Part shown: positions 1 through 29,500 of the stretch, piece after piece
Layout: each line of letters begins with the position of its first letter
Position numbering within the stretch: the stretch's first letter is position 1
Assembly (NCBI GenBank): GCA_019914945.1
Contig: CM034099.1
Coordinates: 15,675,923 to 15,739,922, forward strand
Source of the DNA: Typha latifolia
Lineage: Eukaryota > Streptophyta > Magnoliopsida > Poales > Typhaceae
DNA length: 64,000 nt
Direction: 5' to 3'
Notes under the pieces: model-generated
What the model saw: only the letters and a program-made list of their open reading frames with translations
Told to the model about the DNA's origin: nothing
Database searches by the model: none
Position numbers and translations under genes: made by a program

Positions 1-245
1 GCGTGATCAGGCATTTGCAAATACGAAGAACACATATTGGTCATTCGAATGCATTGTCGGGCCATTCGAACGTACGCATACGTTCAAAGTGCGCTCACAC
101 ATACAAAGAGGTGTATTTGTGCGTTCAAACACAACCTGGAAAAATTAAGTCAGCGCATTCGAATGAACTTAGGTCGCGTTCAAACGCACTTTGGAGAATT
201 AGTAAACTCGTTCAAATGCACTCGGACCGTGTCTGAACGCACTCA
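1..245. repeat. Cluster of degenerate TTCGAACGC units
   Basis: At least eight units of the form [C/G][A/G]TTC[G/A]AA[C/T]G occur in 245 bases, for example CATTCGAATGC near 42, CATTCGAACGT near 63, GCGTTCAAACAC near 121, GCATTCGAATGA near 156, GCGTTCAAACGC near 177 and CGTTCAAATGC near 210. Spacing is irregular (about 20-40 bases), so this is a motif cluster, not a clean satellite. Similar clusters lie at 2890-3080, 39130-39345 and 61290-61415. Confidence 0.7.
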
Positions 246-870
246 CGTAATATGCAAACTTTTGGAGTTACGTGAGTTCTGATATGACTTAGATTTGGCC
301 TTATCTTGTTAACCTATATAAAGTTTGGGATGCCCTAATCCTAAGAAGGTTGGTGATTGCTTTTGATAAGGAGCTCTTTGAGCTACAACGTTCTTCTATT
401 GAACAAGGTTCTTCTCTTCCACAACGCACTAAACTTTCGTCTTAAGGTTCATCTAGATGAATAATCAATCTCGAAGATTACTGAGATTAGAGATCAATCA
501 CGGAAAGCAGTGAATCGCATGCTTTAGCGATCAAGATTGAGGAAAATAAAATCGTAAGGATCGACGGGTTATTTTGTAAGTCAGTATTATAACTGCTACA
601 AGTTGTGATTGATTTTAATAAAGTTTGGATTTATGGTTTTTTTTTCCATTTGGATTTTTCGACGTAAAAATCTTGGCGTTCATCTTTGCTTTACTCTTTA
701 GTATTTATTCCGCATATTTACTTAAGCACAGGGTTGAAATCATTGCCTAGGGTTTAGATACATACGCGTGTCTATATTTTTTTCACGTATAAAATATTTG
801 TAAGATGAAGTATTTAGCCTTACCCAAAGCAGATTGAGAATTCAATATCATGGTAAGGATTTAGAAAGCA
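1..870 (+). mobile_element. LTR-like fragment at left window edge
   Basis: No long reading frame. The stretch has LTR organisation: a cluster of degenerate TTCGAACGC units (1-245), then a TATA-like CTATATAAAG at about 313, then a leader-like stretch, then a T-rich segment near 640-680 resembling the U5 of Copia-type LTRs (a poly-T run followed by GACGTAAAAATC). A related order of motif cluster, TATA box and T-rich segment occurs near 61.3-63.6 kb. The left end lies outside the window and no terminal TG or TSD can be assigned, so the class is inferred. Confidence 0.4.
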
Positions 871-2219
871 ATGATGAATGGCAAGAGGTAGTCCTCCTAC
901 CTGATCCCACAGCCAGGATAAATCCAATTAGAAGGGTTCCCATTAATTAGAATGCCATATTTGGGGGATTCAACATAGGCTTTAACCCTACACCAAACAC
1001 TAAGGAAACCCATAGAAACAAGGGTATGGAAAATAGCCATCCAGCTTAATTTATTATAGCCTTTTTTCATATTTATTTTAATTAGCATCATATGGAGATC
1101 TCTCTGCCAATATATTTGTTAACTTAGAATTATTCTTTTCTTTTCAATTGTTCTCTAAACTTGCAAGTGCCAAATTGGTTCCGAAATTGAGAAAAATTAG
1201 ATAAAATAAAATAAAGACTTATTTTAGAATAAATAAAAAATTTATCTTAATTTTTTATTGGGTATTCGGTTGTTAAAAACATAAATAAGTGTTGGAATAA
1301 AAATATTAGAAAAATAGTGTTTATTTGTGATAGTTGGGATAAGGAAAAATGACGATTCTCTTTTCATAGTTTAATGTAAATAGATATTTATTATTATTTT
1401 TTCAGAGAAAGATAATTTTATCTTACAATTATTATATTATCTTCTCAAGATTATTTTTATATTATTGGCCAAAATATAATTTGATTAAATTTGTCATAAT
1501 TTATATAATATAAATATCATCACAAATAACTAGACTTCAGGTTAAACTAACCCACGATGCTCAAATTACTAGTATAAACATCATCTTTCCCCAATCTATC
1601 ATCTGAAAACCCTATCTTTCTCCTCCAAAAATCATATTTCCCTAATCTCTCTTCACCAATCTCTCTTCCTCAATCTCTCTTCACCAATCTCTCTTCCCTA
1701 ATCCCTCTTTCTCTTCTAATCTCAAGATTTACCTAGGCAATCTTGAAGAGAAAGGCAAAAGTGCTAGTTATTGAGCTCTCTTTCCCAACTCACCAAAAAG
1801 GAGACAACAAGTATGTTTTTGCTCTATGAATTAAAAACAAGATATTCTCCCCTTAAGTAGTAGTACCTTTGTTTGAGTCTTGTATAATCATTTTCCATAG
1901 TTCTTTACCTATATCCCCTTAAGTAGTAGGACTATGCATGCCATATGTTTATAGAAATCCACAAATAAAGTTGTTAAGTATATCACTCAATTGCTTACCT
2001 ATTTGCAAATTATTTACTATATTTTGTTAAATTCTTGTTATCACATTTATTAACCCTATTAATGTTTAGCATGATATATATATAATTTATCATAGATATA
2101 TTTTGATGGGGGAAATTGTACTAATCAAATTGCATTATAGGGGCATATGAAAAGTAAATAAGAGAAATCTACTTAGAGAATATATTAGAGGAAGTCAACA
2201 TACATTTACGGTAGATCGA
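871..2219. other. AT-rich stretch without a gene
   Basis: No coding region or RNA gene is evident. It is AT-rich, with a pyrimidine tract of short repeats of about CAATCTCTCTTC at roughly 1640-1705. It may include the degraded 5' end of the adjacent MULE, but I could not match a terminal inverted repeat with certainty. Confidence 0.5.
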
Positions 2220-2331
2220 GATTATGTGAATTTTACTGAACTTTGCCACTACATATTAGTCAAAGCTAATTTTACTGAGATTATGTGAATTTTACTGAAC
2301 TTTGTCACTACATATTAGTCAAAGCTAATAT
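2220..2331 (+). repeat. 59-bp tandem duplication at the MULE 5' coding end
   Basis: A segment beginning GATTATGTGAATTTTACTG is present twice, starting at 2220 and 2279, nearly identical for about 50 bases. The second copy runs straight into the reading frame that resembles the N-terminal part of MULE transposases, so the duplication is at the start of that degraded gene. Confidence 0.85.
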
Positions 2332-2884
2332 TGAAGGAAATGTGATCAACCATCTATGCTACAGGTCACCTACATTGTGTCAATCCTTTATCACTTTGAA
2401 GAATGATAATGATCTTCTAGAAATGTGTAATGATTGCATGTTATTAATGTATATTGATACGTATGCTGATATAGGGAAAATTATTGCAATAATGAGTATG
2501 ATGATAGTTGTGAAGTAGCACAAGCTTCTTACAATCAAGATGGCAATCCACCAACGGAGTCACATGTACATGATATGTTTGGTTATGATATGGAATTTTT
2601 TAATAGTGTCTCACACTCAGTATCTTTCAACGATATAGGACATAATAGTGACAATGACAATAGCTCATCTTCAGATGATGAAAGAGAATTCATAGAGCAA
2701 ACATATGAGTAGCAAAATGAGGATTCGTCGATGGTTGTTGATGTAACATATGACAATGTTAACAAATTCAGAGATACACTAGGAGACTTTGCAATTGCTC
2801 ACCATTTTGAGACCGTGTACTGATACAACTAGAGTTGGAACGGGTTGTATCAAATGAAATAAATTTATTTTGGAAGAAAAATAA

Positions 2885-3085
2885 AGTTTTTATCGGGGGG
2901 CGTTTGAATGCAAGAGACCGCGTTCGAACGCCTGCAAGTTTTCACAAATACAAAGAACGGGAATTGTGCGTTCGAACGGCCTCGAGCCCGTTCGAACGCC
3001 TGCACATGTTCACAGTTATAAAGAACGGAAAATCCACGTTTGAACTCCCTCAGGCGTATTCGAACGCACCGCGGCGAGAACACTT
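2885..3085. repeat. TTCGAACGC motif cluster inside the MULE remnant
   Basis: Six units (TTTGAATGC, then several TTCGAACGC/G, TTTGAACTC and TTCGAACGC) lie within 200 bases, with a TATA-like GTTATAAAG at about 3015. This interrupts the MULE coding pieces and may be a fragment of an inserted LTR. Overlapping open frames here are by-products of the repeat and show no family likeness. Confidence 0.65.
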
Positions 3086-3161
3086 TATTTTTAGAATTTT
3101 ATTTCTATTGTTTGAGTCCAAAGGGTAACTTTTAAGTATTATGAAATTATATTTTCTTCTC

Positions 3162-3163
<2 letters not shown>

Positions 3164-3222
<59 letters not shown>
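3164..3222. repeat. (CT)n microsatellite
   Basis: A run of about 60 bases of CT with two CTAT interruptions at its left side, followed by a CT-rich tract to about 3440. Confidence 0.95.
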
Positions 3223-3224
<2 letters not shown>

Positions 3225-4258
3225 TCTTCCTTTTTGCTCTAACTTCACATCGTCCCCTAACCTCCATTGATTAGACCTTCCTTCTCATCTCTCGCGGCCC
3301 TTCTAAGAGCGACCCCTTCTTTCCCTTCATCCTATCCATCTATATTCGCCAATATTTCCATCCACTTATCATCTCTTTCTTCCTTTCCACCACCATCAAG
3401 ATCTCCCTTCAATCCAAATAACCAACACATCCCCATATCGATCTAATCCTTAGAATATACATAAAGAATGAGCCTAGTAGAGTTACTGTTAGATGTGCAT
3501 GGCAAGAGTGATGCTTCTACTGTGATTGGTTGCATAATAATGCAAGTGAAATCAATAAAAGGAACACAATCTGTGAGGCAAATTATATTCGTGATAACAA
3601 GATAGCGAAAGCCAGTTGGATAGTTGGAAAATTTATTAATTGGATACGGCTTGAGCCAAGTTTAAGAATCAATGTGCTAAAAGGAAGAATGAATGATGCA
3701 TATCATGTGGAGTCAAGTTATGATAAATTATGGAGGGGAAGAGAGATTGCTTTGAAAAGAATATTTGGTAATGTGGAGAAATCATTTCTAAAAATATCAA
3801 CATTAGATAAATAATTGTCTAAGAAGAACTCAACGAGTGAAAAAGTTTGATATAGACAGCTCTACTTAATGCAATATTATTTTCTTATTGTAGTATTAGA
3901 TAATGTGCCAATTCGGAGAAGCGACGAAGGTCCACTATTTTATGAATTATGGATCAAAATCTTTTAATAGATCTATCTTGGATGAACGTAGTTGCTTGTA
4001 TATTGATCTTATTAATAATATTAGGCAAAAAATGATGCAAATGATAGATAGAAGGTGGAGACATATTGACAAGTGGCAAGATGTTCATACCCTATTGATT
4101 TCAAAGTACATCATTTGGGTTAGCAAGGAAGAAAAGAAAAGTTATTAGGCTTGATAATGAAGAGGTAGAGATTCAAGGGAAAGAAGAGCGATGTACTATC
4201 AAATTGGACACCCGAGAACGTTCATGTAGATGTTAGCAATTATGTGGGCTTCCTTGCG

Positions 4259-4664
4259 TTCATTTTGTTGTCATTATTCTTTCCTCTCAAAGAAATATAG
4301 TGGACCACATTGATAATTACTACATAATTAAAAAATGTAAAGCAATATATACTAGCCGAATTTCAACTTTATCGGATTAAAATATGTGGTAATCTTTATT
4401 GGACAACTTGTTAGTTCAACCTCTAATTAGGAATCATCCAAGGGATAGGCCAAAGAAAAAGAGAATTAGAGGACCAAACAAGGAGCAATTTACATCTAAA
4501 CTTTTTAGGCCTCTCAAAATATGCAAGAGATGTAGAGGGCAAGAGCATAATTGGAAGTTGCAAAGAGCCTATTAATGTCCCAAAATCTATTAAAGAAACT
4601 TCTACTATACTACTTTATCAAGGGAAAGATCAACTAGCGAAAGAAGTCATCATAGTAAAGGTAA
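4259..4664 (+). repeat. Left arm of MULE inverted duplication
   Basis: About 405 bases covering the SWIM-finger end and C-terminal tail of the MULE transposase. The reverse complement of 6101-6505 matches it almost throughout with scattered substitutions and small indels. The matching stretches include the ATAGTGGACCACATTG region, the RPKKKRIRGP coding segment and the final AGAAGTCATCAT. Confidence 0.9.
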
Positions 4665-5172
4665 TTCTAATGAAAGGGGCCGTGGAAGAGGAAGTGAGAG
4701 AGTTGCTGCTAGGGTTCGTGGGAGAGGTCTTGGAAGAGCAATTCATACATTTTCAAGGAGCACTCAGTAGTTAAGGTATGTTTAACTTGGTTGTAATAAT
4801 CAGTTTTGTGTTAGTCTACTTGTTGCTAGATTAGTTAAGATATTTTTGCATTTTAAATTTTTTTTTTGACAAAGTAATGGGTTTTGCAGCAATAGAGGTG
4901 CAACAACTCAGTAATTAGCAACTTATTTGAAGATGTATTAATTCCTTTTTGGGCATATGATATGTAACTGAGAGTCATGAGAATGCTTCCTAGTTGAAGG
5001 TGGAGAATGTATTAATTTCCGATCACAATAGTTTTTTTGACTTAATAAGAATGTTAAGTTGCTGATGAACTATGTTGTAAATGAGCTTAAGTGTGTGTTG
5101 CTGATGAACTGCATGTTGCTTATGAATTGAATATTAATTTTGTCTATTTTACTGTCTTCTTGATTGATTTGC

Positions 5173-5302
5173 TAGAAGTGCGACTGAATGTGAAGTTTCT
5201 CTCTAGAGTTCATTATCTTTTTGTTGATTGGTTTGCTAGAAATGTGACTGAATGTGAAGTGTCTCTCTAGAGTTCACTATCTTTTTGTTGATTGATTTGC
5301 TT
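5173..5302. repeat. 64-bp tandem duplication in the inverted-repeat spacer
   Basis: A unit starting TAGAAGTGCGACTGAATGTG at 5173 recurs at 5237 (TAGAAATGTGACTGAATGTG) with few differences. It lies between the two MULE arms, in sequence with no coding likeness. Confidence 0.8.
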
Positions 5303-6100
5303 CGAATGCTAATGGACTAAGTAGATTCTAGCTTTAGTCTAGTGTTTTAGTCTATTTTAATGTTGGCACTGTGAAATAGAATAGATTCTAGCTGTAGTTT
5401 CATATTTGCTGATTTTCTAGCTTGTTGGTTGCTAACTTGCTTCAAATAGGAGACCACGACTGTAGTTTATTGGTTGTTGACTCTGTTCAGAATTGAGTTC
5501 ACTATCAATATTCACTTGGAATTTGTTCACCCTTAATATTTTTTAGAGTTCACTGACTTAGTAGTTAGTATTTGTTCAATTTGATGGTTGGGCATAATTT
5601 AAGTTGCAAGATCATTCTCAACTTATTCAATTGATCATTCTCATCAAAATAGAATTATAGCATAACTGTAAACAATCATTAAAATTGCTGAAACTTACTC
5701 TAATACAAAGTGATTATACAAATTTACTCTAATATAAGAGTTTTCAGCTAATACAAGATGACTAGTATTTACATATAGTTGAGGTACATCACAACAACAA
5801 ATAGAAGCATCCTAATAATTCCAATGGTCTACTAAATAGCTAGTTGGCCAATCTTCTTCTCCAATAATTTTTTATTAAAGCCTACAAGGTTGATACTTGA
5901 TGTCAATGGGTTTGAAGTTGATATCATCGCACCAAGCAAAAAATATTACAACAATCCTCCTGTAGCAATTAACCATGTTTTGATTAAGATTATCACAAAA
6001 ATTTAGACAAACTTAATAGAAAATTTATACTAACCTTCCTCCTAGGACAATAGTAGAATCTCTTATTATAATTCTTTTTAGTTGTCTAAGTTCTTATTTT

Positions 6101-6505
6101 ACCTTTGCCATGATGACTTCTTCCACTAGTTGATATTTTCCTTGATAAAGTAGTCTAGTAGAAGTTTCTTTAATAGATTCTGAGACATTAGTAGGCTCTT
6201 TGCAACTTTCAATTATGCTCATGCCCTCTACATCTTTTGCATATTTTGAGAGGCTTAAAAAGTTTTAGATGTAAATTGCTCCTTGTTTGGTCCTCTAATT
6301 CTCTTTTTCTTTAGCCTATCTCTTAGATGATGCCTAACTTGAGGTTGAACTAACAAGTTGTCCATAAAAGATTACCACATATTTTAATCCGATAAAGTTG
6401 AAATTCGACTAGTATATATTGCTTTACATTTTCTAATTATGTAGTAATTATCAATGTGGTCTACTATATTCCTTTGAGAGGAAAGAATAACGGCAACATA
6501 ATGAA
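6101..6505 (-). repeat. Right arm of MULE inverted duplication
   Basis: On the minus strand this repeats the MULE transposase 3' segment at 4259-4664, including the encoded RRIRGPNKEQ-like tail. The arms are about 405 bases each with a spacer of about 1.44 kb. A read-through transcript could fold into a long hairpin (inference). Confidence 0.9.
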
Positions 6506-6659
6506 TTATGGATTCTACGACATGGAAAATTGACCTTCTCCTCAACAAGATCATATGGTGAATCTTTTAAGTCTATTGTATTCTAAATAGTTCAAGTATG
6601 TTTCTAGATAAAGCACTTTACACTTGAGTTTACGGTTGACATTTTTTTGTTTCTACCAA

Positions 6660-6860
6660 CCTACAACACCATAAATGATATAAACTTCTTCTTCTTTGCT
6701 CTCGAGAGATATCTTCTTCTTCCTTGCCGTAGAGAGAGACCCACAGTAGAGATGATCTTTTTCTTCCTTGCCCTATAGAGAGACTCACGTAGAGATGATC
6801 TTCTTTCTTGCCCTAGAGATGATCTTCTTCCTTGCCCTAGAGATAGATAGGAGACTCAGT
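6660..6860. repeat. Imperfect tandem repeats with unit GATCTTCTTCCTTGCCCTAG
   Basis: Three to four imperfect copies of a 25-45-base unit with GATGATCTTCTT and CCTTGCCCTAGAGA in common. It lies outside the right MULE arm. Subterminal repeats are common in MULEs, so this may mark the element's right side. Confidence 0.6.
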
Positions 6861-6899
6861 GGAAAAAAAAAATAGGATCAATTTAGGCAGGTAGAAAAG

Positions 6900-9130
6900 G
6901 AGAAGTCGAAACCGAAATAAGGCAAAAAGAAGGGAGCAAAATAAAATTTTCCCTATATCTACTATATTACCAATTGTATTATAGTCACATTACTGTGCAA
7001 CTTGAATCTAAACCATAATATATCACCATAAATAGTGAATAAATAAGTGAGGGCAAATTGGTTATTTATATTTTTAGAGTAATTGGGTGAGATATTCCAA
7101 AACATTTATCTCAACTAAAATCTTGGATAAAGATCTAGAATAAGGGCTTTTATTTATTTTAATTTGTTAGAACTTTATTCTATGTTCGACATAAAAATTT
7201 TAGAATAAAAGGGAAATTAAGGAATAACTGGCTTATTTCACTCAATCGATCGAAGGACCCCAGAAAAGAAATGAGAATTCAACACAGTACAAATCACAAG
7301 TGCAAGATAAAGGGAAAAAAAATATTTGTATATATTTATTTCAAGTTTTCAGCTTGATTCTAATTCTCAAACCACGAAGAACTAAGCACACCGAGAGAGA
7401 AAATTAATATAGGACTTAAGATCTATGTCCTCAATTATCAAAAAGGTAAATTGCTGAGAGTCAAACCTTACAACTGCAAGGGATACCAGTTCCCTCAAGA
7501 AATTACCACCTGCAATATCACCATCACCATCAAAGGCTCAAAGACTTCCTACTAAAACTAATAACGATTCCCTCAGAATTTGCGTAGAAACTTTCAGGTA
7601 TTTTGCCAAATATCAGTATTATTAGGAGTCTAAACATCTTTCAACATAATGAGGAAGATGTTGCAGCAATGCACTTAAAGCGATATTATTTGAAGGACAA
7701 GACATACAATGCGTAAGGAAAGAAACATCTTGGATCTACCTCGGGTGCAAAACTACCATGTCAAGACCAGAAAATTTGCAAATGAATCTAGAAAACCTTC
7801 ATCCAAAGCTTTGCTCTCCGATTAATTCTCTTACTAGCATCAACCGGTTATTATCCGCCTGCTACCCCCTCGTTGAATGCCATCACTCACTTCTTCAAAT
7901 TCTTTAGCTAAAGAAGAAGTGACGAACCAATTCACTATTACTGCTCAATACTCTGGAAACGGCGGCAATGATCGATGATCCAAGATTGTTCGATCCAATC
8001 CGGTGCCAAAAATTGAAATCGGAGATGTTGGAACCATTAATGGGCTTAGACCTCGACTGCCCAGCCCACAAAAGATTGAACTCAATTAATTAAACTTAAC
8101 GTTTTTCTTGCATGTAAACTCCTCTTAATTTTTTTTTATTTTTGCATTTACACCATTCTTTTACTTTTTGATTATTATAAGTCAAAATCAGAACCATTTA
8201 ATTGGCGAAAAGACCAAAAAAAAAAATTCTTATTCAAATTTAACCATCAATGTGTATATATATATATATATATAATCTTTGCAATTGCATGACTCTAAAG
8301 CTCGTAGCTTCTTAAATAATTAGTAATATATGAAAACAAATCAAAGGGTTGGCAGTGAAGATATGCAACCTCTCTATAAGTGGATTTAGAAAAAGAAGAG
8401 TCTTTGTTTTGGTAATTAATGCAGTTTATTTGCTTCTCTTTCAACTCTTTATACTCTAATAAATTTGTAGAAAACTATAGTAATTGGTCAAATGTGAGTA
8501 TGGAAGTTGCATGACTATATTCTCATGAATTACATACTTTTCGCCTACATTGTGTCATACCACCTCATGACTTTAATATATATATATATATAGAAAGCTA
8601 CGAATTCCTAAAGTTTTAGCTACCAACCATTGGCTTGTGTAATCTAGAAGAGATTGAATTAATATTTTGGCGATCTCTTTGAAGAATCGACTAACTGACA
8701 GTTTCTTCTAACCTAAGGACAAGCTTAATGTTTGTCTTTATTCTAGTTGTCGCTTTGCTTCATGATGTAACTGAGCCAAATGAACTTGGTGCCAAATCCA
8801 GGAACGGAATATTTCTCCGAAGACTTTTGCTTTAATTCTTTCATCTTTTTCGCCATTCGAGAAAGCCATCTACCATGACCAAACTAGTTTAATTATACTA
8901 ATTAAATGACTTAATTATAGCTCTATATGTGTACACTGTGTCAAGTCTTGTTAAACTAAGAACTTTAAGCAGTAAAGAATCCCAATCTGATGTAAGCCTG
9001 GATTTATTGGTTGAAGGGTCTATTTCTAAGTTAAGATGATGAGAGCCGGATAATATAGGTTCCTAACTAGCTGTCGTTGAAGTACGTACTATGAAAATTA
9101 TATACGTGCATGCATACATTCCTATAATAA
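6900..9130. other. Intergenic stretch, possible degraded minus-strand exon near 7.4-7.5 kb
   Basis: Mostly AT-rich noncoding sequence with TA-dinucleotide runs near 8252-8273 and 8576-8591. On the minus strand at about 7519-7430, a run after a splice-acceptor-like ATATTGCAG reads GNFLRELVSLAVVRF and continues open for about 30 codons. I do not recognise the family and find no convincing partner exons, so it is left as unassigned sequence and not called as a gene. Confidence 0.3.
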
Positions 9131-9137
9131 AATCAAG

Positions 9138-9505
9138 GGCAAAGTACATATCTCCCTCGTTAATTGATTTGATTCGATTATAACTTACTCTATTTATTTA
9201 AAATTTAAGCATTTTTGTCACTCTTGTGATCCACACAGTTTAATTTTTTCATCTAATTAAATGCAGATGCTAATATTTTTCACGATAAAAAAAATTGCTA
9301 AATAACTAAATTATTTTGTCAAATTTATATTATATTATATTTTTATGGTATAATTAAATTTTTTTCATGTCATATTTATTATTGACTAACCATTGCAGCT
9401 TCACATATGGATCACAAAAGGATTAAGCATTTTAATTTAAAATACCTGAAGGTAAGTTGAAGTCCAGCAAAAATCAAAGAAGGGTAAACTACAATTTATC
9501 TTACA
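9138..9505. mobile_element. MITE-like inverted-repeat element
   Basis: The left arm (about 9138-9240) and the reverse complement of the right arm (about 9400-9505) share an order of matching blocks: GTACA/GTTTACCCT-like ends, TTGATTT, AACTTAC, a TTTAAA-rich part, AAGCATT/ATGCTTA and TTGTGATCCA. The interior is AT-rich and noncoding. This is the layout of a non-autonomous element with long terminal inverted repeats. The superfamily and TSD are not fixed. Confidence 0.55.
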
Positions 9506-10139
9506 ATTAACTTCTATTATAAAAATACGCCTATAGAGAGAAAAAGAAAAGGTACTTGAATATATAAAAAAAATTGGATCATAATCTATAGACATGAACT
9601 TTTGCCTTAAATTAGAGTTTACCCGATCATCAATTTACTTTGTCATGCAAATTCATAGTTAAAAACAATATAGATATGCTGGTTGATTAGGAGATTGTTA
9701 ATAAAATATAAAAAGGGCTGGGATATATATAACAATGAATATTTAAGTAGAACTGGACTTCATCAGATATACATTGATATATTAATTTAAATCCTATCTC
9801 TGGTGGGCTTGTCACTTTAATTGATTTTGATTCAGCTCCTGCGTCGTAGTCTAATAGATATGGAAGTAGTTTAAAAGATCTTCCCCAGCTTGTTTTACAT
9901 TAAAAAAAGTCTTGCTCCCACTTAGAAATTAAGCTTGTCATTTCAACATCCAACATCAAATGGGCCCCTGTTGTTTGGCTTCATATCTCTTTATTTTACT
10001 TTTGCACTTCTAACATGCGATTACTTTAAGTGATACGAATTCCTAGGATGATTAATACCGTAACATACTGCCATGTTGGCTCATTAAACGGAGTTAGAAA
10101 AGTTTGTTAATTGTTAGTAATCCTATGAAGAAGGTACTG

Positions 10140-10177
<38 letters not shown>

Positions 10178-10416
10178 AGCTCATCGGCTACGATCTCTAA
10201 TCTTATTATTTTGAATGCCAAGGGCTCACTCGGATGTAATCGTTTGGTTCATATATCGCAATAAGATTTCTTTTTAATAGGAAGGGTCGATTCGAAAACA
10301 ATTGAAATAATAATAGGAACAAACTATATACAAGGATCATCAGAAAGTAATATTAGGGATGCTAGAGGCCTGGAAGTAAAAAGACCGAGTCGAACCGGAA
10401 AAACTTTTTCTCCCGT
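9506..10416. other. Intergenic, 3' side of the zinc-finger gene
   Basis: No gene is evident. It contains a (TA)n(TG)n microsatellite at about 10139-10178. The sequence nearest 10416 would hold the 3' UTR of the minus-strand zinc-finger gene. Confidence 0.6.
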
Positions 10417-11019
10417 TCACCGAGTCAGCTGGACTGGCGACCCGGCGGGGGCGAGGCTGAGCTTGAGGTCCAACACGAACGCGTCGTCCGAGTTGGCACC
10501 CGACACGGATGAGGGTAACCTCGTGACTCGGTGGCGCTCTTCCTTCCCATAGACGGCGGCGGGAGCCTGCACCACCGTCACCTGCGGGTCCCGCGAAGGG
10601 AAGGCGCAACCGTGCGAGACGTGGAACCCCGACGTGGAGGCGCCGGGGGGCCGCGAGAAGTAGACCCACGTGGCCGCTCCGGCGTCGTGGAACAGATGTG
10701 GCGGCGGCACGAAGGCGGAGGAGATGGGATTGGGCCGGGAATACAGTGCGCCGCCGATCGAGCGGTGAGCGGAGCTAGCGGCCTGCATCTGGGCGCGCTT
10801 CAGCTGCTGCCGCTCCTTCTTGTGCGCGTTCTGGTGACCGCCCAAAGCCTGCGAGTTCGCGAACTCGCGGTAGCAGTACTGGCACTCGTACCTCCTCCCT
10901 TCTCCGACGCCGGAGGCGGCGGCCACCGCGGCAGCGGTGGAGGTGGAGGTGTCCAGAACCAGCCTGGCCTCCTCGGACACGTGGAAGCCGAATAGCTTAA
11001 TTGGATGATTGCTCATCAT
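10417..11019 (-). CDS. Single C2H2 zinc-finger transcription repressor (ZFP5/6/8-GIS type)
   Basis: Intronless 200-aa protein. One plant-type C2H2 finger spans about residues 44-66: Cys46, Cys49, His62 and His66, with QALGGH at 57-62, the plant-specific DNA-recognition motif. Near the N terminus is IKLFGF (7-12), typical of the ZFP5/ZFP6/ZFP8/GIS subgroup, and near the C terminus LDLKLSL (183-189), an EAR motif that recruits TOPLESS-type co-repressors. Alanine- and serine-rich linkers join these. Arabidopsis relatives regulate trichome and root-hair formation in gibberellin/cytokinin responses, and that role here is only inferred. The frame starts with two consecutive ATG codons and either could be used. 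The coding sequence is much more GC-rich than its surroundings, as usual for intronless monocot genes, so open frames on the opposite strand (10531-10995) are GC shadows. No overlapping host neighbour. Confidence 0.93.
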   Translation of the reverse strand: MMSNHPIKLFGFHVSEEARLVLDTSTSTAAAVAAASGVGEGRRYECQYCYREFANSQALGGHQNAHKKERQQLKRAQMQAASSAHRSIGGALYSRPNPISSAFVPPPHLFHDAGAATWVYFSRPPGASTSGFHVSHGCAFPSRDPQVTVVQAPAAVYGKEERHRVTRLPSSVSGANSDDAFVLDLKLSLAPAGSPVQLTR

Positions 11020-11043
11020 GCTCTTGATCTCGAACAGAGGAAG

Positions 11044-11100
11044 AGGAGATATATATAGTTTGAGTTCGATCAGCTATGTGAGTTATATGTATATATATAA
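11044..11100 (-). promoter_or_regulatory. TATA-like sequences upstream of the zinc-finger gene
   Basis: Reading on the minus strand, CTATATATAT lies about 30 bases upstream of the start codon and a second TA-rich run about 70-80 bases upstream. The more distal one would leave room for a short 5' UTR. TA-rich microsatellites are common here, so this is suggestive only. Confidence 0.3.
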
Positions 11101-13692
11101 TTTACACACGATTTAAGGAAAGTACAGTATAAGGGGGAACGAAAGCTAGTCGCAGCTGCAAACTTATGACTGGTCAGTAGTCACATATATATATAATACT
11201 CTTATAGACGTCAGTGATATATTTTTAGATTGAGAGAGAGATGATCGAGTGGAAAAGAATTAGCAACCAGTGTACTTTCTAAAGATCCAGTATGATGAAA
11301 AAGTACAAGTAAAATCAAAAGGAAAGTTACATGGGTACTTAGCTTTTGATATATATATATATATACGTAGTACACTTTAAATAGATGGACTCATATGTGT
11401 GTTGTGTATAGCTTAGGGAGGAGATAGAACAATAGGGGATTGGTAGAGTGGTTGGGGGGAATGATAATTTGTTAGATTAGGTTTGGTGGCATGGGTGTGC
11501 ATCACCTATAAATTTAAGCATGTCTCTTTTACGTAAAATACTTGAGGCGTAGCCTTGTAAACCTAAACCACATACGTAGGAAAAGGCTTTGACGAACTAT
11601 GTCCTTCTTCAACATTTTTCCACAGAATAGGAAAGAATATCTGGTGAGTTTATTACCATTTGATTCGAAGCAATTAACAAGCTTAAGTTCTATCACTTTA
11701 ATTTTGTATAGTTGTGTTACCGTAATAATTTGTAGCTGGCAATATGTAAATTAAACGCATACTTTCTATATATCTCATTTTAGATAAAGGAATGCTAGAG
11801 ATATAGCATGTCATAATAAGAGTAGGTGGAAAGTTATATAAAAGTTGGGAAAAAATATTAGAATTTCAAATATTTTTTGTTGGAGATGTTCAAACTTCAA
11901 AGAGAGTTCAAGCGTGTTCATACGAATCCTTTTGAATGGTGCCTTTGTATAAAAAGGTGAGATGGTAAATGAATTTTCTATAGAGCAGCCAGTATGTGGA
12001 ATGCTAGCTTTGAATGTCCAATGAATTTTGAAAGTTTTGGAGTCGATTTTGAAAAGATTTGAGAATGACTTAAGGGGGAGGGTTTTTTTTTTCAATTTAA
12101 CTACATTTAATTTTTCGATTAGTAATAATTGACTATGTGTACTGTATATATATAAATTATATGCACTCTTTTATAATAAAAAAAATATTTATCTACTATG
12201 AAAAATATATGCACTCAGTTTTATATACTTAATTAAAAAGTTAAATATAATTAAACTATAGAACCCTGAATTTAAGAGCATTTTAATTTGTTAGAACGAA
12301 TATGTCCACAGGAACAAATATTATTTCATTCATGTGCCTTTTGGAAATCTCTTCCACATTAAAAGTCTTAAAATTGTGAAAGAAGAGAAGCAATCATTAT
12401 TGTCCAAGACCAATTTCATTGCTAGGGTAGAACGCATGAAAATCTTGGAGGTTCTATAGTTGTTTTAGTGCAAAATTATATAGTGACAAATTTATGGACA
12501 TAAAATGTTTAGAAAAGTCATATACAATATAGGATAAGGCATATGTCTTATGGAGGATTATACATGCGAAGAGAATTAAAGAAATAATTAATTTAAGTTA
12601 AAACAATCTTATTCCAACATCACTGCATAACTTAGTGTGCACTTGAGTTTATACATCGTGCACACTAAGAATAAATTGTGCATAAATCACTTATGGAATT
12701 TAAGTTTGGTGCGAACCGAACTAGCTTAGTGTATATCGATTGCATAGAACTAATAAAAGAAAATTCACAAATGGTTTTTGATTGAGAATATTCTTTTATA
12801 GTTTGTTTAATTTGAATTATTAATTTTCTCACTTATAAAAGACTCAGAGGCTAGAGGAAAACTTACGAGAATTCAAGGGAGACGAAGTTTACATTTAGAA
12901 AACTCTAAGTTCTTACATCTATTATAAGAGGAACTACTATTATATGTTTGTGTATTGAGTCTTCAACAATTGATCATCAAGAGCACCAAATGAGCTAGAA
13001 CGAAAAAATGATATCTACATCAATCGACACGAGAAGTTTGAGGAGCAACATGTAGTGATATACAAAGCATTAAGTTTTTTACTTTCTATAATTAATTTAC
13101 AATCTTAGTGACCTTTGAGATTGACGTTTTGTTTTAGTGATCTTAGCTATTTGAATCTAATAAAATATTTTACCACTTTTTGTCACGGGCTCTTTTTTAG
13201 TCTTGATCTTAATCGCTCCTAAAATTAAAAGTAAAAAACTTGACTAATACCAAAGAAAATTAAAAGTAGATGCCTAAATAATACCCAAAAATGTCATAAA
13301 TGCATATTAAAAAAACTATGCAGATTAGCATTGAAAAATCACGAACTGGATGGATATCATAAAATCCTAGGTCAAATATATTCTAACCACTTTTGAATAG
13401 TTAGAACAGCCTCACAAAGACTTTTATCTCATTTACTTAAGGGATAAGATCAATTTTAAAATAGGTATTCTTCTTTGTTATTACTAAAATAAGGTTTTAT
13501 TCTAAGAATAATATTCTTGTGTTCATTTGTATCCTGAAATAAGAGTGTAATAATTATATTTAATGTGATATAAAATGAAGGAACATATGGAAAAAAATAT
13601 GTTTTATTTTTTCTAAAATTATCATAAATTCTTTTTGATTTGATATAAAATAGGTTTATAGGATAGATATCTAAGAGTAATTAGTAATTGAG
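11101..13692. other. Intergenic AT-rich stretch
   Basis: No gene is supported. A TA run lies at about 11349-11364. Weak TTCAAA/TTCGAA-like units occur at 11888-11940. The minus-strand frame at 11811-12095 has low-complexity composition and no family likeness. Confidence 0.5.
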
Positions 13693-18049: not shown

Positions 18050-19997
18050 CATTTGCTCATCTTTGTGTACCTTTAGGTTGAATATTTTTGTCCAACGATT
18101 TATAAGCCATCCCCGCTGTAATTTTTTTTAAAAGAAAATATAATTTTATAGATAAATCATCTTGGTTACAAAAAGTTCTATTAGAATCGAAGACAAAAAG
18201 CTTAACAAGTTCAACAAGGAAATCGCTATCCCAAGTACAATTGAGATATAGTAATCTACCACTTTTAGCCAACCAATCAGTAGGTTAATTGGCTTCACAC
18301 TATACATGACTAATTTTATAATTTTAGTAATTATGAGTTAATTTAATAATATCATCAATAAAATTTTCTACCGTCCAAGATGCTTAGGAATGTTGTTAAT
18401 CGTATTGACAAGGAAAGAAAAGCATACTCAGTCCAAAGATTAGGGATACTTTTATCCTTTAAAAAGAGCAAAGTCTCACGAGTTCTCATGGCCTCGGCAT
18501 ATAGTGCCAAATTGAAATATCTACATCTTACACTTGCAATTATAGGCTCACAGCTAGCCTGCCGAACTACGAAGCTAGCTCCACTTGTGCTCACAAAAGA
18601 GCCATCCGTGTTTACTTTAAACTACCGAGGTGGTGGTGGTTCCCAATGGATTAGAGCAATACGGGAATTTGGTTTCATAAAACTAACTAAGTAATTCTCA
18701 ATATACTCAAAGGTCGGTTAAGCTTAAGGATCGAGCCAAACCTTTACTATGTCCTTTCTTTGATTATTATAGCAGGTGTTGTTTCAGTATTTTCAGATTT
18801 GCCAAAAATTGATGATAATAAGAGTACACAACCAACTTTTTTTTTATCCTAACATTTTTTGCATTCCTTAAGTTAAATGCCATCCTCCAAGAATCCCAAA
18901 AAGAGATACGCCAATCTTCAAAATATTCCACAAGGTAAAAACCCTTAGACTGCTATAGTGCCCCTTGATAAGTGGCCAACTTTTGTTAACATGGACACAT
19001 GAGCAAATATTAGTGTCTATGCCATTCTTGATAACATTAATTAGACCATCCTTCATTTCCTATATGGGAGATAAGAAGAGCCACTAGGCCTAAGAGATAT
19101 TTTTACTTTCCTCTTTGGAAACGAAGGTTGTGAAACCCTATATTTAGCCCTAACTAACTTGGCCCAAGGATCATCAAGTCCATTAAACACCTTAACAATA
19201 ATTTTTGCCATTAGCAAGAACCGAATAGAGATTTCGAATACCCAATTGCCCCAAGGCTTTTGGAAGGTTGGCATGATCCCAACTAATAAGGTGCAACCCT
19301 TTTTTTTCTAAGACTTTATCCCATAAAAATTTTTGAGCAAGTTTAGCAATACGATCAACCACTGTCATAGAAGTCCAAGTATAGAACAAGAGATGAAACG
19401 ACATAGAATTTAAGACCGAGTTGATTAAAACAACTTTAATCACCTAGGTCAAAGTGACTATTTTCCACTCACAAGTTTCATTCAATTTTAGAGAGAAAAT
19501 CCTTATGATCCCTAAACAGCAAGCGACTAGGGAAATTTTTTGACCCAAGATACTTAAATGAAAAAAAAAATCCAACATTCATGTGAAGGACTTTGGGAGT
19601 GTTTGAACGAACAACGATAGAAATTCTACCAAGAAAGAGAACTTTCAATTTTTGCTTGATTATACACATATTTGTGATATTTTTAAACTTCACAAAAATA
19701 TAACAAATTTTGCATAGAATTTTCACAAATTTTAATAATTAGAAGGTCATCTGCATACATAAGGTGACTAAGTTGCACTTCCTCGGAAATGCAAAGGGAT
19801 ACGATATCCCCTGACAAAATTATTTTTCTAAGAAAGCGAGTTAAAATTTCAAAAATTAAAGTAAATTGATAAGGGAAAAATGAATCTCCTTGAAGGATAC
19901 CCCTATCTCTTTTAAACCAGTTTGAACCATTGCCACCATTAAAGCAGCAAAAATCAATTTGAATGCTATTGTATAGTTGTTTATAGTATTTCTTCAA
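18050..19997 (-). pseudogene. LINE (L1-type) remnant: reverse transcriptase to RNase H
   Basis: Reading on the minus strand from 19997 down, broken frames give the C-terminal half of a LINE reverse transcriptase. 19997-19683 has GILQGDSFFPYQF and the catalytic MYADD motif. 19726-19478 and 19443-19192 are thumb/connection parts (MTVVDRIAKLAQKFLWDK, LGIRN). 19274-19053 has DPWAKLVRAKY. An RNase H-like domain (about 18640-18355) contains EPIIASVRCRYFN and the alanine/glutamate-rich helix ALYAEAM. Stops and frameshifts disable it. LINEs copy themselves through target-primed reverse transcription. No poly-A tail or TSD was located at the 18-kb side. Confidence 0.8.
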
Positions 19998-22090
19998 TTT
20001 GATATATGATGCATAGCTTGATATGTAATATGCTAATAGTTTTAATGTCTACTTTCACGATTAAGAAATTGGGAGTTGTCTGGACTTACAGATTGTCAAA
20101 GCTCTAAATTCTCTTTCTTTCTTTCCATAATTAGAATGCTATCAAGAAAGAACATAAAAGATTGCAAGCACTGACTATAGCATAGTGTTTGAGGCACTAA
20201 AACTTGTAGGTCTTATGATTCATCTCAAATACGTGGCTAGGAGTCCAATGAGAGGTGGGTGCTCGTGCACTGCCTTTTCTTATCTCACTAGTCTTTAATC
20301 TTTTCTTTTTTACACCATCTCCTCCTCGCCCACTTGAGCATGAGCTTGATTCTCCTTGTAGTTGCTCGTCGACACTGAGAGGGACGGGAGAGGTCATATA
20401 TCCTATATCCTAGGAGATTAGATGCACCATATTTTATCGATATAATAATGTTAAAAAATAAAGCATAAAAAAAAAATCTCAAATACATAAATTTTATCAT
20501 GAAAAAAACTCTAAACCTAGGGTAAAAACTAAAGATATTTTTCAAAATCAAATCAATCACTAAATAACTATAACAATTATAAGATGATAGACTTATCGGC
20601 AGCTCATTGATATCCATGACTATCCTTATAGGGTCGCTCAAATCCATGATATGCTGCTTTCCATGATCTTTTTTTAACCTCATTGATTATCAAGGTTGAT
20701 GCTCTTGTCTTAGTGGCCCTCGAGACAAAGTCTTTCAAAATTTATAATAGATGAGATATATAAAAAGCTATACAACGCCTTCTGTCATAGATTTTTCCAA
20801 AGCTATGATGTGATTTCCAAAAGTTGCTCCATGGATAATAAAAGGGAGTTCTATGATTAGATTAAAACTTTCTTATATACCTCTACAAAATAAAATCTCA
20901 ATAACCATAGAAGATTGCCCACGAAATCTGCACAAAAGAAAATTCTTAAGTGCTTTTAAACGCATTGTTCACCATTTGAACATGGTATTGTTCATTTGAG
21001 TTTGAATGTCTTAATGATGAGGTTATATTCTCAAATTGGTTAGAATCACTCTTCTAATATCTGACTATCTCAAACTTTTTTGAACCACTTTTAAAGTTAT
21101 TAGAACCGCTTTGAAAACATGCCTTTTTTTAATATCCTCGTACACCTCTATAAGAAGTGTTTATGTTCATACAAAAATTCTAGATATTTTTATATATTTA
21201 GAGTATTTTGAAACACATTATCAATTACATAAAACCTAATATTCTCAATTTTTTAGTAATTTGTCACAAAATAAACTTCACCTAAAATACAATGTTTAAA
21301 ACATTCATTACAACATCCTAAGAGAGCATGTAACAAGTGTTATGAGATTCAATTAATCCTATAAAGCTCAAAAATGCATATACCAAGTGAAAAAAAACAA
21401 GTGTGGCAAATAAATAAATATGCATGTGTGGTAAATAATTTCATATGTATCATGTAAAAAAATGTATAATCAACGTAACTATATGTATGTCAAATCGGTA
21501 ATTAAGCGCATGCATATCAATAATAATAAATTAAGTACACGGCGTATACTATATCAAACGATACCATAGTATAAGTTCCTCATTATTAGTCATTAGTATC
21601 ACACCAAGTGGTTTGCAAAGTTTTGTCTTTTCTTTACAATTTGCGCAAGCCATGTGCTCATAAGATTGGATAGCTCTTAGTTAATATTTACTCCTAGACT
21701 AGTTGCCCGAGCCACTTTTAAATTTTGAATATTTCTTTAGTTATTTTCATAAAAATTCTATCAATGCAATATTATTATTTCTCATTTGACTCCAAGAAAG
21801 CGTACATATGAGTTTTCAAGATAAATAACTATATTTATTTGAAAAGGAAGGTCTAATAGAGGATTGTATTTCTGTGGAAAAATTTCATCTCCTAGTGGCT
21901 CTTTCTTTAGAGTAAAAGTCTTATTTTGATATCAATTAAATTTTGACTAAATTACACTTTGCCTTTTATATTTTGACCCAGTATCATTTTATCTCCTTGT
22001 ACTATAAAAACATACAAATAACTTCCTAGACTTTTTAAAAATAACCCCGTAAACACCGTTAACAAATATCCTAAAATTACTTTTTTATTC
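19998..22090. other. Intergenic, possible trace of a hAT transposase start
   Basis: No intact gene. On the minus strand, 20397-20197 encodes a short serine-rich peptide with VKKKRLKTSEI, reminiscent of the basic region before the BED finger of hAT transposases, but the finger itself is absent. Weak TTTGAAC/TTCAAA units are present at 20955-21010. The rest is AT-rich. Confidence 0.35.
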
Positions 22091-26506: not shown

Positions 26507-29500
26507 ATGAGTCTTGCGATAACAGAGAGGAAGCCGCAGCAGCAGCGGCCATCTGGTTGCGTTGGCATTCTCTTCCAGCTCTTGGACTGGAATCGCCGGC
26601 TCACCAAAAAGAAGCTCTTCTCCAAAACCACACTCCTCCCTCCAGGTATGCAACAAAAGTAGTTTTTTTTGTACATAAAAGAAAAAAATTACTTCCTTTT
26701 TTTCCCCAATGTGAGTTGTGTGCCGTCATCTTTGCTCCAGTTCGTGCCGCGAAAAGGGTGAGCAAGAAGCTTGGCAGTGACGATGACAAGATGCCCATCG
26801 GCAAGCTGCTTCTGGTACTTGTTTATTATTATTTTAGTTTTTTTAACTTCCTTTGGTGGCTATTGGTTTGCAAAATCTGTTCCTTTGGTGAATGCCTTTG
26901 ATTTGGGATGTTTTAGATTGCGGAGGAGAACCGTGGGGGTTTTCCGAGTGCGAGGAAGCCAGTGGAGGATGCCGGTGATGGAATGCGCCCTCCTGGGCTG
27001 GTGGCGCGGCTTATGGGTCTTGAGACGATGCCGGTCGAGAAGCCAAGGAGGGCTTTAGATTCAACCAGTAGTTTTGCAAGTAGTAGTGGTGGTAGTACTA
27101 GTTCTGATGGATATAGAAGGGTGGACCAAGATCTCTGTTTGCAAAATGGCAGTCTTGGGAAGGCGGAGTTGTCACGACCGCAGAAGCTTCAGAAGACTGG
27201 GGGGTTCTTGGAGAGTCGCCCAGCGTGTGGCATTGATAGGAATGTGCTATCGCCCCGGTTGCGAAGGCAGCAGAACAGGCTTAGTTCACCAGTGAAGAGC
27301 CCAAGGTTTCTCTCAGGCAGTTGCCACAGGGCTCGGTTGGCTCAGGTTGCGAGTAAGATTCTGGAGCCGGGGATGCGGCCGAGGAGTCAGGCTAAATGCG
27401 CTCTTACCTACATTGGTTCTTCGCAATGTGATCAGGAATTCTTGGGTGATCCCTTAGTCGGGTCTTGCAAGAGCTGTGGTAGTTTAGTTGAGGTTGCGCA
27501 GTTGCGAGTCGGTGTCAAAGAGCCTTGGTTGCCTGAGCATAGGTATTCTGCTCCAGATTTCAGTAATAGCTCTTCAAAACATGATGGTTCTTTGGAGACT
27601 AAATTGGAGCCAATGTTGATTCCTGGTGAGAATGAGAGAGTTTTGGCACATCCTATTCATGATAAGGTGATTGTGGAGAGGAGGGCCAGCGATTTAGTGG
27701 AGAGAAATTGTGATATTAGGAATGTTCAGGACCAGTGCAAGGTAGTGCAGAATGCTGCATCAAAATCCTTTATTAAAGTTGACAAACTGAGGCAGAATGA
27801 AAAATCAGTAGTTAAGGGCAAAGAGGCGTGTGGATCCAACAAGGTTGCTAGTCGGACCATGGCCAGAAGAGTCTCAAATGATCTAGTTGGGTCGAGGGAC
27901 ATTGGAGCTTCAAACAGAAATGCAAGAAGTCGTACAAAGATGAGATCCGGCGCTACTGGTGATAGAACTGAAAGCGAGAGGAATGGTTTGGACAAGAGCA
28001 TGACCCGTAAACGAAGACCTCCTAGCAGCCCTCAGATTGAAGGTGGTGTGATTAGTTCAGACTTTGTGAAGCGAAGCATTGGAAGTAACATGATTAACCA
28101 AAAAGGAAAAGGGTCCATAAGTAATTCATTGATCCATAATGCTTGTGTTAGAAGAGATTTGAGGAAGAAAGATAATAATCGGACTGTTAGCAGCAGGAAA
28201 GAGAATAGTAAAGTTTCTTTCTCAGCTAGTTCACAAATGAAGCAGATAACTAAGTCTTCCACTTACAATCAAATGGCACGGAAGAGCAGCGCTGAACATG
28301 AACTACCCTGTAATGCTTCCAATACAAGAAGGTCGGTGTTGGATGCAGAAAGTGGAAGTGGACCAAGTTCATCAGAGAGGATAATGACTTTAACAGGAGA
28401 TTCCTTAAGCAAACTATTGGAACAGAAAATCAGGGAACTAAATTTCTTGGATAGGGATGAGCTGGCAACAAGTGACGCCCTTTCAGGAAGATCTACTGCT
28501 TCAATACTCGAAGGTCTGGTATCTGCATTTACTAAGGAAGCTCCCATAACTCCCATGACTCAGAAAAGTGTTGACAGCTGCTCTGGTTTGTCCACTCCAA
28601 CAAGTTGCACAAGTCATGGCAGCAGGGATCTATCAGACAGTACAGTCTTGCCTGATCAGACACCTGACATTCTGAAAAATTATCAGGTATGTTTATTTTA
28701 TTTGTATTTATTTAGAAAAAGTTATCAGGTCTCTACGTTGCTTCTTCTTATCTGCTTTTGGTAGAATATGTTGTGCTCAAGTATCCATCTGATTTTCTTA
28801 ATAAGTGTAAAGATACAAAGATGTCATGATGTGTTCCATTCATCTGATTTTTTTGCATGAGCCTAGTCTCCAAAGAAGTATATTACTCTGATCATCAAAA
28901 TTGCTTTGGCATTAATTTCTAGACGATTGATTTTAGGTAGATACTTGACTTTAAAATCGTGGTGGTTTCTTCTTTTTAGTCATTCCCATATTTGGATTTC
29001 ACTCTCGCAGAATGTGATGTTGTTGGGAGAGTATTGGATGACAATGACGATTACGACGATTTTGATCTTATTCATTCTAAGCCCAATTGCCATTTTGGCT
29101 AATATTATGCTAGATCTTGAAGCGACTATAAAGCATGTTAATGGGCTCGAGAGATATTTTCCATATAATATGGATACTCTTATAGCAAAAATGTCTAGCC
29201 AGACATCAAGCAAAAGACAGTCCTGAATTGTCCTAAATGTCTTAGTTAGAGATCAAGCAAGAGACAAAAACCTAAAATGATGGCAAAGGAGGCCATTGTG
29301 GAAGCTTAGTGGAATGCAATGCTCTTGAGGGCTCATGCAAGGTTGAATAGGTCAAAATATAATGCAACTTCCAACATTGGAAATTGAAGCAGAGCAGGCT
29401 AGGGCTTTTTGTTGAAGCCGATTAGCTTAGTGACATCAAACCTGCAATGGAAGCTGAGGGATCCATGAAGTTATACTTGATAGCAACTTGATCTGGACTT

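Follow-up and report, generated by a model that had tools for sequence, protein, structure and literature searches.

The inverted repeat that we examined probably arose as a by-product of DNA repair, through templated gap filling within a dead MULE, in which a piece of the transposase gene's 3' end would have been copied and joined back in the opposite orientation. The repeat lies near one end of a 64-kb window (the whole stretch of DNA analysed here, C1:15675923-15739922), and the genome searched for related sequences comprised 214 Mb in 62 contigs. Arm 1 (4259-4664, plus strand) aligns with the reverse complement of arm 2 (6099-6505) at 92.6% identity in a 407-column alignment that contains a single 1-base gap (self-BLAST E = 4.5e-141), which confirms the proposal of an earlier, sequence-only reading that the two arms form an inverted duplication of one source. 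The coordinates given in that reading held for the whole of arm 1 and for the end of arm 2 at 6505; similarity in arm 2 begins at 6099, two bases before the start that had been placed at 6101. A repeat search recovered the same pair split at the 1-base gap into segments of 248 nt (93%) and 167 nt (92%). Between the arms lies a spacer of 1434 bp (4665-6098), and the tandem duplication reported inside it is real: a 64-bp duplication occupies 5157-5284 on the plus strand (copies at 5157-5220 and 5221-5284, 64 nt at 91%), with a third copy of 30 nt at 77% (5285-5314).

We then asked how unusual this arrangement is. It was the sole inverted pair found in the 64-kb window at thresholds of at least 150 bp, at least 80% identity and at most 5 kb of separation. 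Pairs of at least 150 bp and at least 80% within 5 kb occurred in 3 of 14 sequences, a base-rate sample made up of the window and 13 fetched loci of ~9 kb each that were chosen for resemblance to the element and not at random. The two other positive loci each hold a relative of the MULE, and their inverted pairs lie at 5201-5437 / 6125-6366 in L041 (91% over 242 columns) and at 5430-5688 / 8601-8869 in L043 (83% over 270 columns). A genome-wide search with the arms returned four places, namely arm 1, arm 2, a C7 copy at 78% and a C14 copy at 70% along 144 bases. All 4 candidates were scored, but very common words are skipped, so that the count is not exhaustive. The inverted layout was single-copy in this search, rather than present in the many genome-wide copies that the sequence-only reading had named as grounds for giving up a silencing locus, and this rules out the layout as the MULE family's own structure. 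An assembly artefact as the source of the arm pair is ruled out by the 7% divergence between the arms and by the 24-Mb contig in which they lie.

The arms sit in a decayed MULE-type element (1512-6955, transposase on the plus strand) whose left end is truncated (boundary ±~20 bp) and whose right end is present, with DNA relatives on C7, C15, C14 and C2. Comparison with these relatives resolves the element into a 5' part (~1527-2820), a foreign repeat (2816-3453) and the 3' part of the transposase gene (3454-4895). The foreign repeat, a high-copy sequence inside the transposase gene, is missing at C7 and C15, where the copies pass from 2813/2820 to 3455/3454, and has more than 30 matches listed elsewhere in the genome, most of them at 71-82%. 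These come from an element-wide query with 545 first-look candidates, the best 40 of which were scored, and most listed matches fell within 2816-3453. An imperfect self-inverted stretch (2877-3092) lies inside this repeat. The right terminal, TIR-like sequence of the MULE (6864-6955) has inverted matches at the left ends of L040 and L041 and recurs at further places, including match clusters at C5, C4, C14 and C1 that we read as short elements; its left partner is lost in the window element. Pairwise alignment of the element's ends yielded only loose, A+T-rich alignments as candidate TIRs, and comparison with relatives was used instead.

The borders of the element are further defined by the DNA into which it inserted. 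The stretches 1175-1529 and 6954-7215 are halves of one short repeat family, separated by the MULE. At six of nine fetched loci (L053, L054, L055, L056, L057 and L061) the parts left of ~1530 and right of ~6954 are only 9-94 bp apart, and the other three (L058, L059 and L060) do not clearly show the join. MULE target-site duplications are ~9 bp long. The MULE-free repeat copies place the insertion point near 1527-1530 / 6954-6958, an estimate that is not exact to the base, the left end being truncated.

Assignment of this element to the MULEs draws on less direct evidence than a domain match. Pfam searches of nine translated window pieces gave no match above cut-off; three sub-threshold matches were to unrelated families or to PB1. 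The MULE transposase core, PF10551, has 101 matches genome-wide, all of them outside the window; we infer that the core was lost between ~3791 and ~3859, where the relatives' matches break. A SWIM-like Cys/His motif recognised by eye, the occurrence of the terminal sequence 6864-6955 in inverted orientation in relatives, and the location of a C14 relative all point to a decayed MULE-type element and not to an intact member. The last of these supports the assignment because the relative (C14:6778616-6778760) lies ~1 kb downstream, on the same strand, of a PF10551 match (C14:6777363-6777569). The sequence-only identification of the arms as MULE transposase is upheld by this motif, relative and terminal sequence, and not by any Pfam or PF10551 match in the window. 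Elsewhere in the window, inspection by eye suggested that a minus-strand open frame with a YADD motif (19683-20048) is probably a LINE reverse-transcriptase remnant, and that a 615-residue open frame with a VARLMGLE motif (26917-28764) is probably a LONGIFOLIA/TRM-type plant gene.

Having placed the arms within this element, we compared each of them with relatives. Arm 1 carries a SWIM-like motif at its start and a zinc-knuckle-like motif inside, both recognised by eye, and the C7 relative is collinear through window positions 3846-4895 (79.7%), which marks arm 1 as the native 3' end of the transposase gene, still in place. Arm 2 is bordered on both sides by parts of a small gene convergent with the transposase, the 3' part forming its left flank (5655-6098, minus strand) and the 5' part its right flank (6506-6682, minus strand). 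Matches to all or part of the left flank lie at no fewer than seven other places (all 10 candidates were scored), and five of the seven (L039, L044, L045, L046 and L047) carry both flanks without the arm, with 0 to ~134 bp between the matched pieces. In L039 (C2) sequence matching window 5750-6109 lies next to sequence matching 6514-6584, so that 6109 adjoins 6514. Of the remaining two, L049 passes from the left flank, across ~163 bp, to a match with the terminal sequence and lacks the right flank too, so a deletion could account for it; L048 covers only the far left (5606-5876) and is uninformative. Since one gain fits better than five losses, we regard arm 2 as an insertion. The relatives that lack arm 2 match the left flank at 65-78%, too distantly for any of them to serve as a near-identical empty site, and divergence of this order could mask a very short target-site duplication. 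Under loose scoring the left-flank matches of L044 and L047 extend ~50 bases into arm 2 (to 6150 and 6148), and under stricter scoring they end at 6101 and 6105.

The junctions of arm 2 suggest how it was inserted. On the left, the bases TTA (6099-6101) are common to the left flank, arm 1 and L039, a 3-base microhomology of a length that chance alone can produce; TTA is present also at 6506-6508. The right junction lies near 6505/6506, with arm similarity stopping at 6505 and flank similarity back by ~6509 in the junction alignments. In these alignments we recognised no target-site duplication around arm 2, against relatives at most 78% identical at the flank, found no extra transposon sequence beside it, and saw no flank visibly lost relative to L039. 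Arm 2 thus combines a copied insert, junction microhomology and no target-site duplication recognisable at that level of flank identity, features by which templated insertions are judged, and the last two make it look like a templated repair insertion rather than a second transposon.

The gene that surrounds arm 2 is found near the right end of MULEs of this family. Its minus strand reads RFYYCPRRK and FFAWCDD, with C-x-C-G in L039, and by eye it resembles a GRF zinc finger. Pfam searches of five pieces of the gene and its relatives found no GRF domain (the one hit, to an unrelated family, was weak at E 0.064), and none of eight genome-wide PF06839 (GRF) matches falls at the convergent-gene loci. 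After the gene, L044 and L049 both carry a match to the right terminal sequence of the MULE. This layout is reminiscent of mudrA and mudrB in MuDR. On C1, at C1:12751409-12751501 (plus strand) and C1:12753229-12753510 (minus strand), a PF06839 match lies ~1.7 kb from a PF10551 match in convergent orientation, which we take as a second hint that some MULEs here may carry a convergent GRF gene.

These observations lead us to the following scenario for the origin of the repeat. A MULE whose coding capacity had probably already been lost would have broken in its 3' part, inside the small opposite-strand gene, and repair would then have copied ~405 bases of the transposase 3' end, either from ~1.4 kb away or from a near-identical sibling. 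The copied bases would have been joined inverted into the break, a case of templated gap filling, the mechanism put forward for the capture of fragments by TIR transposons; both the break and the strand switch are steps that we infer. Comparable events are described in two reports: at plant plasmid and T-DNA/T-circle junctions, filler DNA that was copied from other sites, shows microhomology and is in part inverted (PMC8395108), and single-copy fragment capture by animal TIR transposons, attributed to gap filling with a cis bias and microhomology (PMC8277862).

We next considered how the arms have changed since the copying. Two stops (D*NMW*S) are common to both arms, and C7 reads K and Q there; shared stops against Lys and Gln suggest that the copied template was probably already broken, on thin evidence, the sole polariser being C7, one decayed outgroup. 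Of 406 aligned columns, 29 differ between the arms, 21 of them by transitions, and polarisation by C7 assigns 11 changes to arm 1 and 14 to arm 2, with 4 unresolved, a near-equal division as for neutral decay of both. Identity to C7 over 396 ungapped columns is 79.5% for arm 1 and 78.8% for arm 2, and with gaps counted arm 1 reaches 78.4%, compared with 79.7% for the containing stretch 3846-4895. We see no sign in these comparisons of selection keeping the pairing or the sequence of the arms.

The arms have a strong predicted capacity to pair. The predicted RNA duplex between them has an energy of -598 kcal/mol; ten mononucleotide shuffles gave -93 to -118. Folding of 4259-6505 to minimum energy places 384 of the 406 bases of arm 1 in pairs with arm 2. 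Perfect arm-arm runs reach 56, 41 and 28 bp; arm 1 alone folds in no unusual way (z = -1.06). A transcript spanning both arms would therefore be expected to form a long duplex, if the locus were transcribed through. Transcribed separately, the two convergent genes would each give only the sense strand of their own arm, so a hairpin would need read-through past the end of one of them. On that side the closest gene-like open frame, on the minus strand ~3.5 kb away (10417-11073), points towards the element; judged by eye from its QALGGHQ C2H2 zinc finger and LDLKLSL ending (EAR-like), it is probably a host transcription factor gene, and read-through from it into the element is speculation. Rfam at gathering scores gave no match in window 1-12000, a result that says little about a long hairpin.

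This folding bears on a reading in which the fold-back RNA of a transcribed, decayed transposable element would serve only as a cis-acting source of siRNAs, keeping its own locus methylated with no target in trans. We consider this possible, if on the unlikely side: besides the folding evidence, C>T and G>A changes make up 13 of the 25 that could be polarised in the arms, which is compatible with methylated DNA, but ordinary transition bias, or methylation of transposable elements that involves no hairpin, yields the same signature. Such a source is compatible with a repair origin, and its odds overlap with those of our preferred explanation. It is improbable that arm 2 is the leftover of a second MULE, nested tail-to-tail in the opposite orientation and since largely deleted. 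Nesting is plain at this locus, where the repeat 2816-3453 lies in the MULE and the MULE itself within another repeat; however, the sequences flanking arm 2 run together without a break in relatives, and neither a TIR nor other MULE sequence is attached to the arm.

Also distinctly improbable is a Mu killer-like locus, in which siRNAs from a read-through hairpin would silence related MULEs in trans. The strength and extent of the predicted duplex, with its long perfect runs, and the single-copy layout are what such a locus might show, but the genome arm search returned no near-identical target, the best other copy being the 78% match on C7, followed by the short C14 match. Only 4 of the 386 distinct 21-mers of arm 1 occur in the fetched 9.5-kb C7 locus, as do 4 of 387 from arm 2, whereas 70 of the 386 are shared between the arms, so no good present silencing target is visible, though one may have existed in the past. 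The genome search for intact MULEs matching the arms, which the sequence-only reading had proposed as a check, gave no near-identical MULE. What survives of the proposed hairpin silencing locus is its geometry, the common source of its arms, its single-copy layout and a strong predicted fold-back; the silencing role itself is disfavoured by the want of a near-identical MULE, by a template probably already broken, and by arms that have drifted about equally with no extra conservation. A further reading, which we hold to be very unlikely, is that a MULE captured part of itself by gap filling and so became a source of hairpin RNA that helped to extinguish its own family. It would account for the scarcity of similar copies and, if true, would mean that inverted self-capture can give rise to Mu killer-like loci.

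Under the repair origin that we favour, one repair insertion can create an inverted transposase repeat, the raw material of hairpin RNA, inside a MULE, and an inverted layout alone is weak evidence of a silencing locus. Small RNAs, if found at the locus, would tie transposon self-capture to the birth of silencers.

Among known systems, the precedent invoked by the sequence-only reading was the maize Mu killer (Muk), and it applies to the geometry: in both, part of a Mutator-type transposase gene is duplicated in inverted orientation within a defective element, the MULE assignment being indirect in our case. It does not extend to the region duplicated or to the route of silencing. According to one report (PMC3440606), the Muk halves start with TIRA and run 1.298 kb into mudrA, a TIR-proximal region, the centre not having been sequenced, and there Skibbe et al. 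2012 tie MuDR silencing to short antisense transcripts from inside Muk, while leaving room for a hairpin route through less abundant, longer transcripts. The arms described here, in contrast, span 0.4 kb of the transposase 3' end, are 7% diverged and contain no TIRs, the terminal sequence lying outside them at 6864-6955; and whereas Muk, in the same report, silences MuDR, our arm search found no near-identical target. Pack-MULE/Pack-TIR gap filling (PMC8277862) may be compared with our locus, where a copied fragment lies in an element with one remaining TIR-like end, with junction microhomology and a candidate source within 5 kb in cis. It differs in that the fragment here comes from the element's own transposase and not from non-TE sequence, and in that the left end of our element is lost. 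An insert of ~400 bp is long for filler DNA, and arm 2, at ~405 bp, differs from filler in this respect. In being a copied insert, with microhomology, inverted and without a recognised target-site duplication, arm 2 otherwise resembles the filler DNA found at plant breaks (PMC8395108).
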